Assembly (NCBI GenBank): GCA_947446865.1
Contig: CANFHX010000010.1
Location: forward strand, 30,031-94,030
Length of the DNA stretch: 64,000 bases
Reading direction: 5' to 3'
Source of the DNA: Flavobacteriaceae bacterium
GTDB lineage: Bacteria; Bacteroidota; Bacteroidia; Flavobacteriales; Flavobacteriaceae
Under the pieces are notes generated by a model. That model was given only the letters and a program-made list of their open reading frames with translations. It made no database searches and was not told the DNA's origin. Below are positions 19,587 to 32,499 of the stretch, piece by piece (position 1 is the first letter of the stretch; each line of letters opens with the position of its first letter). Both the position numbers and the translations under genes were made by a program.

Positions 19587-19802
19587 ATGGTAACTGTAAA
19601 AATAAAAGAAAACAGCAAACAATCAAAGGCAATTATAGAAATGCTTAAAACCTTTGACTTTGTTGAATTTCAAGAAGATAAAAAAAGTAGTTCATTGAAA
19701 ACAAAAAATGAAATTTCTATTTTATCTAAAAAAATAAACAAAGCTGGCACAAAAAAAGCATTCGCTAAATTAGGAATTGACTATGATAGTTATAGCCGAT
19801 AG
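19587..19802 (+). CDS. Probable antitoxin of a PIN-domain toxin-antitoxin pair
   Basis: 71 residues, lysine-rich and without a signal peptide. The start MVTVKIKENSKQSKAII is beta-like, the middle is a charged linker, and the end INKAGTKKAFAKLGIDYDSYS looks like a toxin-wrapping tail. No named family is recognised. It overlaps the PIN gene downstream by about 20 bases, the classic order and coupling of type II antitoxin and toxin. No autoregulatory dyad is obvious in the upstream 259-base AT-rich spacer. Antitoxin function is inferred from partner and size. Confidence 0.6.
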   Translation: MVTVKIKENSKQSKAIIEMLKTFDFVEFQEDKKSSSLKTKNEISILSKKINKAGTKKAFAKLGIDYDSYSR

Positions 19803-20220
19803 TAATTTAGTCATTAGTAGTTTGTATGCTCCAAAGAGCATTATTGCATCCATTTTTAAGTCCGAAAAAAACATTCAATTAATTGCACCTGATTTTATTT
19901 TAGATGAAATCAACAACCACTTTACTGAAATAGTTGATAAAACTAGAAAATCTAAAAGTGAACTACAATTTGAACTCAAACAAATTGTTGGGCGTATCAA
20001 ATTTATTCCTGCAGAAGAAATCCCTATGATCCATATAAAAAAAGCTATTGCTATTGTTTGGGATATTGATATAGATGATACTTTATTTGTTGCACTTCAT
20101 TTGTTTAAAAAGCATAAAATTTGGACCGGCGATAAAGTTTTAATAAATGGCTTAAAGTCTAAAGGATATGATATTTGCGTTACCACTACTGAACTTAAAA
20201 CAAAGATGTATAAAAAATAA
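19783..20220 (+). CDS. PIN-domain toxin (putative ribonuclease)
   Basis: 145 residues from the ATG at 19783 (the track uses a TTG two codons earlier). MIVIADSNLVISSLY holds the first acidic PIN residue, DFILDEINNHF the second, DIDIDDTLFVALHLF the central Asp pair and WTGDKVLINGLKSKGYD the last acidic residue, giving a full metal-binding set. Such proteins cleave RNA and act as toxins when their antitoxin is lost. Overlap with the 71-residue partner by about 20 bases supports a type II module. Base composition is like its surroundings. An intact catalytic set suggests it is functional, unlike the broken PIN gene near 34 kb. Confidence 0.8.
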   Translation: MIVIADSNLVISSLYAPKSIIASIFKSEKNIQLIAPDFILDEINNHFTEIVDKTRKSKSELQFELKQIVGRIKFIPAEEIPMIHIKKAIAIVWDIDIDDTLFVALHLFKKHKIWTGDKVLINGLKSKGYDICVTTTELKTKMYKK

Positions 20221-20390: not shown

Positions 20391-21137
20391 ATGAAAATAT
20401 TAGTTTGCATCAGCCACGTGCCCGATACTACTTCCAAAATCAACTTTGTTAATGGCGATTCCGAGTTTGATACCAATGGAGTTCAGTATGTAATTAATCC
20501 AAATGACGAATTTGGTTTAACAAGAGCAATTTGGTTTCAAGAACAACAAGGCGCAACCGTTACCGTGGTAAATGTTGGCGGTGCCGATACCGAGCCTACT
20601 TTAAGAAAAGCCTTAGCCATTGGTGCTAATGAAGCAATCCGAGTAAACGCAGTTCCAACCGATGGTTTTTTTGTTGCCAAACAACTAGCCGAAGTTATTA
20701 AAACAGGCGCTTACGATTTAGTAATTTGTGGTAAAGAATCCTTAGATTACAATGGCGGAATGGTTCCCGGAATGTTAGCCGGATTATTGAACTACAACTT
20801 TGTAAATTCGTGTACTGAAATTACCGTTGACGGAACTTCTGCCAAAGCAGCAAGAGAAATTGATGGTGGAAAAGAAATTATTTCTGCTAGTTTGCCATTA
20901 ATCATTGGTGGGCAAAAAGGTTTAGTAGAAGAAAAGGATCTTCGTATTCCTAACATGCGTGGGATTATGACAGCACGAACCAAAGTACTAACAGTTTTAG
21001 AACCCGTTGCTGCCAACAACCAAACTAAAATTGTAAAATTTGAAAAACCCGCTGCTAAATCAGCAGTGAAACTAGTTGCTGCAGACAATCTAGACGAATT
21101 AATCAACTTATTACATAACGAAGCGAAGGTTATTTAA
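20391..21137 (+). CDS. etfB: Electron transfer flavoprotein subunit beta
   Basis: 248 residues. The beta subunit of ETF (FixA type) binds AMP and, with EtfA, carries electrons from acyl-CoA dehydrogenases to the quinone pool. MKILVCISHVPDT is the usual start, and TVVNVGG, AIRVN, AYDLVICGKESLDYNGGMVPGMLAGLL and the adenine-site stretch are present. Length is normal. It is followed after a 167-base spacer of heptamer repeats by etfA on the same strand, so the pair is likely one transcript despite the repeat insertion. Identification is firm. Confidence 0.95.
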   Translation: MKILVCISHVPDTTSKINFVNGDSEFDTNGVQYVINPNDEFGLTRAIWFQEQQGATVTVVNVGGADTEPTLRKALAIGANEAIRVNAVPTDGFFVAKQLAEVIKTGAYDLVICGKESLDYNGGMVPGMLAGLLNYNFVNSCTEITVDGTSAKAAREIDGGKEIISASLPLIIGGQKGLVEEKDLRIPNMRGIMTARTKVLTVLEPVAANNQTKIVKFEKPAAKSAVKLVAADNLDELINLLHNEAKVI

Positions 21138-21140
21138 TCA

Positions 21141-21297
21141 GTGTTCAGTGCTAAGTGTTCAGTGTTCAGTTGTAAAACTTTAAACCTGAAACTTTAAACC
21201 TGAAACCTGAAACTTTAAACTTTAAACTTTAAACAAAAAAACCAGTATTCAGTGTTCAGTTTTAATACTTTAAACCTGAAACTTTAAACTTTAAACA
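21141..21297 (+). repeat. Composite 7-bp-period array between etfB and etfA
   Basis: Two composite blocks. Block 1 is GTGTTCA, GTGCTAA, GTGTTCA, GTGTTCA, GTTGTAA (21141-21175), then eight units alternating ACTTTAA and ACCTGAA (21177-21232). Block 2 (21244-21297) repeats the plan: AGTATTC, AGTGTTC, AGTTTTA, then ACTTTAA/ACCTGAA units. Every unit is exactly 7 bases except the junctions. It fills nearly the whole intergenic spacer and ends 7 bases before the etfA ATG. Confidence 0.9.
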
Positions 21298-21304
21298 AAA
21301 AAAT

Positions 21305-22273
21305 ATGTCATTATTAATATACGCAGAATCCGCAGACGGAAAATTCAAAAAAGTTGCTTTTGAATTGGCTTCTTATGCTAAAAAAGTTGCCGAATCTCTT
21401 GGCACCACTGTTACAGCAGTAACCGTGAACATTGCAAACGTTTCCGAATTATCCAATTACGGAGTAGATAAAGTTTTGAAAGTGTCTAACGATAAATTAG
21501 CCAATTTCAATGCCAAAGCCTACGCCGACATCCTAAAACAAGCCGCACAAAAAGAAGGTTCGAAAGTTATCGTACTTTCGTCTACCACAGACAGTTTATA
21601 CCTTGCACCTCTTGTGGCTGTAGGCCTAGACGCTGGTTATGCACCCAACGTTGTAGGACTACCTATCACAACTGCGCCATTTCAAGTAAAAAGAACTGCT
21701 TTTTCTAACAAAGCATTCAATATTACCGAAATTGCAACTGATGTTAAAGTACTTTCCATAGGGAAAAACTCTTTCGGATTGGTAGAAAATGCTTCTTCAG
21801 CAACCGAAGAAGATTTTGCTCCAACTTTAAACGATGCCGATTTTTCTGTAAAAGTAGAATCCGTTGAAAAATCTTCTGGGAAAGTTACTATTGCCGATGC
21901 CGACACCGTAGTTTCTGGTGGACGCGGATTGAAAGGCCCAGAAAATTGGGGAATGCTAGAAGAATTAGCCTCCGTTCTTGGTGCTGCAACCGCATGTTCC
22001 AAACCCGTTTCCGATTTAGGATGGCGTCCTCACAGTGAGCACGTTGGCCAAACCGGAAAACCCGTTGCAACCAATCTATACATTGCCGTTGGAATCTCGG
22101 GAGCCATCCAGCACATCGCAGGAATCAACTCTTCTAAAGTTAAATTAGTCATCAATACCGATCCCGAAGCGCCTTTCTTTAAGGTTGCCGACTACGGAAT
22201 TGTAGGTGATGCTTTCGATATTGTGCCTCGTTTGACACAAAAACTAAAAGAATTCAAAGCACAGAATTCTTAA
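21305..22273 (+). CDS. etfA: Electron transfer flavoprotein subunit alpha
   Basis: 322 residues. The alpha subunit (FixB type) carries the FAD of ETF. The N-terminal half has [24 protein letters not shown], and the C-terminal FAD domain has [15 protein letters not shown], the [19 protein letters not shown] block and [21 protein letters not shown], then [22 protein letters not shown]. Length is normal. It lies downstream of etfB with the heptamer array between, and a good terminator follows. The repeat array ends 7 bases from the start codon, so it forms the translation start region of this gene. Confidence 0.95.
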
Positions 22274-22332: not shown

Positions 22333-22385
22333 GTATATTAGAGTTATTAAAAGCGAAACTTTTTGTTTATTTGCAATGGCCATTC

Positions 22386-22480
22386 CCGCTTTACGCAGTA
22401 TCTTTATTGTTTTAAAGAAAAACAATAAAGGATACCTGCTGCAATCGGGGCTAAGCGGTAAACTGTGTTGTGTGCAGTTT
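22386..22480. repeat. REP-like intergenic hairpin element
   Basis: CCGCTT and AAGCGG enclose a long inner stem, GTATCTTTATTGTTTT against AAAACAATAAAGGATAC, with CTGC pairing nearby. A second hairpin, AAACTG and CAGTTT, follows. The minus strand reads CCCCGATTGCAGCAGGTATCC, which resembles a hairpin I remember as common between flavobacterial genes; this is recollection, not a search. The ORFs 22331-22525 and 22270-22506 in this region are shadows. With the terminator and the ATCTAAA array it fills the 352-base spacer between etfA and the nuclease gene. Confidence 0.55.
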
Positions 22481-23249: not shown

Positions 23250-23253
23250 TAGA

Positions 23254-23363
23254 GTGATCAGTGTTCAGTGATCAGTGTTCCGTTTTTTTTTAGTAAACAG
23301 TGTTCCGTTTTTTTAGTTTGCAGTAAAAACCTACAACCCACAACCTACAACCCACAACCTAAA
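23254..23363 (+). repeat. Two 7-bp-period arrays upstream of thyA
   Basis: First array: GTGATCA, GTGTTCA, GTGATCA, GTGTTCC (23254-23281), then T-rich sequence with another CAGTGTTCCG. Second array: ACCTACA, ACCCACA, ACCTACA, ACCCACA, ACCTAAA (23329-23363), ending 10 bases before the thyA ATG. The word GTGTTCA is shared with the etf spacer 2 kb away. Confidence 0.9.
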
Positions 23364-32368: not shown

Positions 32369-32410
32369 GTACGATATACGAAGTACGATATACGATATAC
32401 GAAGTACGGA
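32369..32410 (+). repeat. 7-bp-period array (GTACGAT/ATACGAA) after fbaA
   Basis: Six units: GTACGAT, ATACGAA, GTACGAT, ATACGAT, ATACGAA, GTACGGA. The first unit begins on the base after the fbaA stop codon. The word GAAGTACGA also occurs, inverted, in the array at 34224-34258. Confidence 0.9.
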
Positions 32411-32461
32411 GATTGAAATAATAAAATTTAATATAGTTAGATTAATAAGTTAAGAAGTCCA

Positions 32462-32496
32462 ACTTCTAACTTCCAACTTCTAACTTCCAACTTACT
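32462..32496 (+). repeat. 7-bp-period array (ACTTCTA/ACTTCCA) before accD
   Basis: Five units: ACTTCTA, ACTTCCA, ACTTCTA, ACTTCCA, ACTTACT, ending 3 bases before the accD ATG. AAGTTAAGAAGT just upstream can fold back on it, so a hairpin can form at the start codon. Confidence 0.9.
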
Positions 32497-32499
32497 ATT

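Follow-up and report, generated by a model that had tools for sequence, protein, structure and literature searches.

Heptamer repeats close to start codons are already known in bacteria. MacGregor (2015; PMC4679880) described direct repeats of the heptamer TAACTGA in Beggiatoaceae, cyanobacteria and some Bacteroidetes, which are intergenic, lie mostly just 5' of start codons in one orientation and occasionally occur reversed after a stop codon; the Bacteroidetes spacers mix other heptamers with TAACTGA, and close cyanobacterial strains differ by indels in 7-nt steps. Heptamer arrays with inverted pairs are likewise on record, in the form of the G-rich GGGNATC heptamers of Xanthomonas and Nostoc, some of them paired in this way (Rehm, 2015; PMC4692102), a paper which also cites the Calothrix heptanucleotide repeats of filamentous cyanobacteria. 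The etfB-etfA spacer described here belongs to a heptad-periodic, quasi-palindromic class of intergenic elements that is widespread in Flavobacterium, and at this locus the element is present twice in tandem. Like the TAACTGA repeats, its heptads stand directly 5' of a start codon in a fixed orientation (C-type units on the start side, G-type units on the stop side), but the unit differs, many units are in use, the two arms usually occur together and complement each other, and elements change as wholes from one species to another. The TAACTGA dimer TAACTGATAACTGA is absent from the host genome, and exact TAACTGA dimers were found in three of the 40 genomes searched. With the Calothrix and GGGNATC arrays the element shares degenerate intergenic heptamer tandems, variable in length and sequence between close species, and some inverted pairs; yet those arrays are made of one or few G-quadruplex-type units per genome, whereas here the units are AT-rich, fall into many classes, and form paired arms as a rule at the spacers studied. 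Imperfect inverted repeats with arms made alike are also typical of the quasi-palindrome template-switch hot spots studied by the Lovett group (PMC7202029; PMC8604942), but these are single short inverted repeats rather than heptad arrays, and the mechanism that we borrow from them below is carried over by inference. REP, REPIN and BIME sequences and MITEs are, like our elements, short, palindromic, intergenic and found in many spacers; unlike them, the heptad elements have no conserved element sequence and no near-identical copies, no unit with GTAG/CGTC tags was noticed, and their replacement is allelic. The element classes as a bacterial heptameric tandem repeat array (STRR, or long heptamer SSR), with 7-nt units head to tail, a mostly intergenic location and copy number changing in 7-nt steps (in the sister genome L261). 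It is not a high-copy palindrome of fixed sequence like REP/REPIN, nor was the target-site duplication expected of a MITE, an element with terminal inverted repeats, seen by eye. We found no report in the open-access literature of facing heptad arms in Flavobacterium, of class switching at orthologous spacers or of allele exchange, and the paired arms, the class switching and the exchange of cassettes appear to be new.

The window (the whole stretch of 64,000 nucleotides analysed) belongs to a Flavobacterium-type genome, hereafter G000, of 3.07 Mb in 76 contigs; as this genome is a draft, assembly may have influenced the lengths of its arrays. Based on simple ORF calls and Pfam, etfB, encoding the beta subunit of electron transfer flavoprotein, occupies 20391-21137 (+ strand, 248 aa; ETF, PF01012, E = 6e-26), and the codirectional etfA, encoding the alpha subunit, occupies 21305-22273 (+ strand, 322 aa; ETF_alpha, PF00766, E = 1e-31), leaving a spacer of 167 bp (21138-21304) from stop to start. 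The preliminary description had this gap filled by arrays, and indeed it consists almost wholly of period-7 arrays, which Tandem Repeats Finder places at 21138-21170, 21175-21234 and 21261-21296; at lag 7 it matches itself at 0.71, and dinucleotide shuffles do so at 0.30 (z = 10.2). The same description was right that a composite array is duplicated in the same order, with an A tract between the copies: a G-rich array, a C-rich array and an A7 tract follow each other in copy 1 (21138-21241, 104 bp) and again in copy 2 (21242-21304, 63 bp), all read on the + strand. Composite 1 opens right behind the etfB stop codon with its G-type arm, a (TCAGTGT)n heptad array (21138-21170; period 7, 4.7 copies), continues with a C-type arm of mixed AAACTTT and AAACCTG heptads (21175-21234; period 7, 8.6 copies, with an additional period of 21), and closes with the A7 tract (21235-21241), the poly-A stretch of the earlier account. 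Composite 2 consists of a G-type arm (CCAGTATTCAGTGTTCAGTT, 21242-21261), attributed to the direct-repeat family D1, and a C-type arm (ACTTTAAACCTGAAACTTTAAACTTTAAAC, 21267-21296; period 7), whose role as an arm agrees with the matching of spacer halves across species reported below. Over 53 nt (21244-21296) copy 2 matches copy 1 at 91%, and in a gapped alignment most of the differences between them are whole heptads, with a few substitutions. The G-type and C-type blocks are not independent repeats but roughly complementary arms of a quasi-palindrome. One further statement has to be amended: the array, said to form the etfA start region, only adjoins it, as it ends at 21296 and is followed by a leader of A7 plus T (21297-21304, + strand) that lies outside the heptads and immediately 5' of the ATG.

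An Rfam search returned no match inside 21138-21304 up to E = 5. An intrinsic terminator in the spacer was considered and rejected, there being no site on the operon strand, where the C-type arms run into A runs. In the neighborhood, a Flavo-1 RNA (RF01705; 61 bits, E = 5e-12) lies just 3' of etfA at 22378-22456 (- strand), and a PIN-domain protein (PF10130), possibly the RNase toxin of a toxin-antitoxin pair, is encoded just 5' of etfB at 19777-20220 (+ strand).

The element is not peculiar to the etf operon; many gene spacers hold heptad elements. They have a period of 7, are intergenic and use many unit sequences: in a survey of 864 kb of the 3.07 Mb, 71 arrays of period 7 were detected, versus a single one in an order-3 Markov control, while all other lags gave at most eight arrays each, bar the harmonic 21 with 20. 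Although 88% of the bases were called coding, 57 of the 71 arrays lie outside ORF-based gene calls, and several of the 14 inside such calls sit in doubtful ORFs. On the left side of spacers the typical units are AGTGTTC, AGTTGGA, AGATGGA, GGTTGTA, AGATTTT and AGTACGA; those of the right side are AACCTAG, AACTTTA, TTCCAAC and ACCTACA. Two other elements of this kind in the window fill the spacer between a BFN-domain nuclease gene and thyA (23252-23363, + strand; G-type arm 23252-23286, C-type arm 23325-23363) and that between fba and accD (32369-32497, + strand; AGTACGA/TATACGA arm 32370-32412, TTCCAAC/TTCTAAC arm 32457-32497). The close relative G028 carries 18 arrays in 382 kb, and in 200-kb samples of other congeners the excess of period 7 is weak and densities are lower, which indicates that array density depends on the lineage. 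Particular heptamer units are also amplified lineage by lineage: G000 has 19 copies of the exact dimer AACACTGAACACTG and G021 has 59, many congeners lack it altogether, and a reversed-pattern control gave zero. In G021, contigs C59 and C68 have their first bases within long AACACTG arrays, which suggests that heptad repeats interrupt draft assemblies and are undercounted in them.

We compared about 110 Flavobacterium genomes, the larger set comprising 80 (a species-level collection of 79 plus that of the window). The tight linkage of etfB and etfA assumed in the preliminary description is indeed the norm in other families of the order, where the two genes are mostly 2-28 bp apart; the exceptions are spacers of 73-123 bp in three genomes of two families, with a weak period 7 in two. 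Within the genus, by contrast, the spacer measures at least 60 bp in 68 of the 80 genomes, the element itself spanning about 72-155 bp in most species. Most relatives have repeats at this site, built from other heptamers, rather than the unrelated repeat-free sequence that had been named as evidence against the array. Across the 68 long spacers the top lag is 7 in 46 cases, 8 in ten and 14 in six, and the mean z is 4.0 for lag 7, with lag 14 next. The heptamer classes comprise AGTNTTC with AAACTTT, GAATTNT with AATTCAAA, AGATTTT with AATCTAAA, and AGTCGAA with GACTTTA, the rest being mixed. On an EtfB tree, which stands in for the species tree and has many weak branches, these classes are scattered among close relatives (for example, G006 and G008 of class A group with G015 of class C). 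Six members of the genus (G012, G022, G023, L279, L290 and L298) have short spacers of 16-50 bp without the element, and the etf spacers of some congeners hold unrelated palindromes. Among the latter is a GC-rich palindrome (CCTCTCC...GGAGAAGGG type) in L264, L269 and G014; the flanks of L269 and L264 are 89% and 86% identical to those of the window. The fba-accD spacer gives a similar picture in nearly 30 congeners, nearly all species having a heptad quasi-palindrome with units of their own, and the element of G028 is unrelated to that of the window even though its AccD is 99% identical.

Within each element the two arms are alike, while sequences differ between species. The left half of accD spacers pairs with its own right half at -17.4 kcal/mol, versus -9.05 with the right halves of other species, and the corresponding values for etf spacers are -12.5 and -7.65 kcal/mol with swapped partners; neither for accD nor for etf did any of 20,000 permutations give a mean as low as that observed. 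Generic co-directional spacers of G000 show some within-spacer pairing too, if weaker, and the test thus demonstrates matched arms, not selection by itself. Folding is uneven: single-sequence folds are strong for several elements of classes B, C and D and weak for the window's own, whose hairpin is only modestly more stable than shuffles (z = -1.5 as RNA, -0.2 as DNA), and the arms of class A pair imperfectly. One strong conserved hairpin was considered as a common feature and rejected, RNAalifold yielding no consensus for classes A and C and a weak one for class B.

The closest comparison is with L261, whose etfB and etfA are 96.0% and 96.5% identical in DNA to those of the window and which carries the same two composites in 132 bp. 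In this one pair the spacers differ in length by whole heptads: that of L261 is shorter by exactly 35 nt, i.e., five heptads, all inside the C-type arm of composite 1 (21175-21234). In other alignable spacers, indels are mostly of 1-3 nt, with 7 nt as a secondary peak and 1 nt commoner. The double composite in the form seen here is common to the window genome and this 96%-identical sister and was not seen in the other genomes; it probably stems from one duplication in their common ancestor.

Spacers also change as wholes. Among 61 close pairs (flank identity of at least 87%; pairs not independent), 29 have unrelated spacers, less than 60% identical. In such replaced pairs identity averages 82% over the final 25 bp of etfB and 94% over the 75 bp before them, whereas in pairs that keep their spacer the values are 98% and 95%. 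Conversely, spacers are shared between distant species: G015 and G005 are 92% identical in the spacer versus about 80% in the flanks, G007 and G010 share theirs likewise, and L268 and L328 combine a spacer identity of 92% with flanks of 76%, as L268 does similarly with L313 and L339 (the pair L293/L330 was left out, its flank identity being too low to be plausible and probably the product of a faulty alignment). Distant sharing carries the last ~25-50 bp of etfB along; in G007/G017, for instance, the spacer and the last 50 bp of etfB are both 96% identical, and identity beyond that is 82%. These profiles show that spacers are replaced en bloc between close relatives and shared between distant ones, and that the adjacent 25-50 bp at the end of etfB move with them. 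Of 30 long spacers that follow a TAG stop, 28 begin with T, which places the stop codon in phase with an AGT heptad and is consistent with an exchanged tract that includes the stop.

At the other end of the spacer, the last 12 nt 5' of the ATG are 63% A and 1% G over the 68 long spacers, and in 63 of the 68 shuffling the spacer makes the start region less open. Initiation in F. johnsoniae is tuned by mRNA structure and by A at -3 (PMC6847099).

We consider it likely, though well short of certain, that the etf spacer is a fast-evolving, slippage-prone quasi-palindrome with alleles that pass from species to species through short-tract homologous recombination, and that it leaves the A-rich start open. 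Units would be gained and lost through replication slippage, for which a 7-nt polymerase contact, Mrázek's hypothesis as cited in PMC4679880 and PMC4692102, may be relevant. Template-switch copying at the hairpin, a process that makes E. coli quasi-palindromes more perfect (PMC7202029), would keep the arms alike. Homologous recombination over short tracts, with the conserved flanking genes as anchors, could then carry finished spacer alleles from one species to another. The element may be tolerated because it sits between a stop codon and an A-rich initiation site that is left unstructured. If this is right, spacers in the conserved operons of a large genus are renewed at a higher rate than the adjoining genes and along a different route, and their sequence is discarded and exchanged while the 7-nt rhythm and the inverted-repeat layout regenerate. 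Such spacers would then offer natural material on 7 nt as a preferred bacterial unit, on the likeness of hairpin arms and on the minimum tract of interspecies recombination; they would also caution that like spacers between species need not mean conserved regulation.

A rather unlikely alternative is that the spacer is a control element, an inter-cistronic heptad hairpin selected to set EtfA:EtfB output through translation or mRNA processing, for instance by uncoupling translation or by being bound unit by unit by an RNA-binding protein. Hairpin-like pairing is retained while the sequence changes, the position from stop to start goes with an open A-rich start region, and translational control has been proposed for TAACTGA heptamers 5' of start codons (MacGregor, 2015; PMC4679880). 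Yet members of the same genus manage with 16-50 bp and no element, and other families mostly with 2-28 bp; the same kind of element occupies many unrelated spacers, convergent ones included; and class switching leaves no conserved binding sequence. The open A-rich start fits initiation as described for F. johnsoniae, which suggests tolerated filler with mild effects at most, and the effect of the etf spacer on EtfA output is probably mild.

That a mobile palindrome, REP/REPIN- or MITE-like, transposes into spacers and is then degraded by heptad slippage seems improbable to us. Whole elements are present or absent at the same spacer (25 bp in G023, 77 bp in G032), related heptamers recur at many loci, and the genome has three matches to a Y1-transposase domain (Y1_Tnp), candidates at most for the transposase (RAYT) associated with REP/REPIN sequences. 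However, not one near-identical dispersed copy was found in 864 kb, the best other match of the window's element in the whole genome being 88% over about 50 bp. No target duplication was seen by eye between the empty and filled sites of G023 and G032 or in other pairs, the replacement reaches into the end of the upstream gene as recombination does and insertion does not, and the units are too variable for one transposase. The idea that blocks move or duplicate as composites, put forward in the preliminary description, survives in part: the two arms were apparently duplicated jointly in the lineage shared with L261, and at one and the same spacer species exchange whole composites, but transposition within the genome finds no support, and the lack of near-identical dispersed copies makes the movement seem allelic and between species.

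Slippage alone does not explain the polarity of the arrays. Left arrays have G>C in 38:14 and right arrays C>G in 44:12 (Fisher p about 1e-7, genomes pooled), so that 82 arrays obey a G-left/C-right rule and 26 do not. The tendency is present in each gene-orientation class, if weak in the smaller ones, and in G000 alone. The polarity might be a by-product of start-codon selection, yet convergent spacers are polar as well (6:1 left, 3:0 right), in small numbers that are non-significant within most single genomes. We also entertained, at a low probability, a Flavobacterium process beyond ordinary slippage that writes facing polar heptad arrays into spacers, with cassettes circulating by very-short-tract recombination. 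Such writing might proceed, for example, by end-addition of units at breaks or by hairpin-primed copying, with the G-type strand running inward from both genes.

Drift in place, in which an ancient heptad spacer is inherited vertically and mutates without exchange between species, is improbable. In its favor, some elements of G000 are matched in G028 at 97-98% identity, on par with their flanks, and certain lineage-specific heptamers, AACACTG among them, are amplified in some species only. The identity profiles already speak against it: close relatives with flanks 91-96% identical have unalignable spacers, and species with flanks of 75-82% share spacers at 89-96%.

Two other kinds of element were encountered along the way. 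Facing-arm elements with a period of 8 instead of 7 occur in the thyA spacers of G005, G006, G015, G010 and G030 and in the etf spacer of G033, an example being GTTTAATC GTTGATTT GTTTATTC ... GATTAAAC GAATAACC GAATAAAC. A second dispersed intergenic element has a conserved outer frame (GGCATTTTAGTAA ... TTCCTGC ... GCAATC / GGATTTCCACT ... AGGGCTA) around an inner hairpin that is wholly different in each copy. Its copies in G000 include C5:83942-84672, C6:5057-5594, C4:48289-48407, C6:57998-58461 and C11:32529-32810, and sequence resembling it is also found in the etf spacers of L307, L314 and L321.
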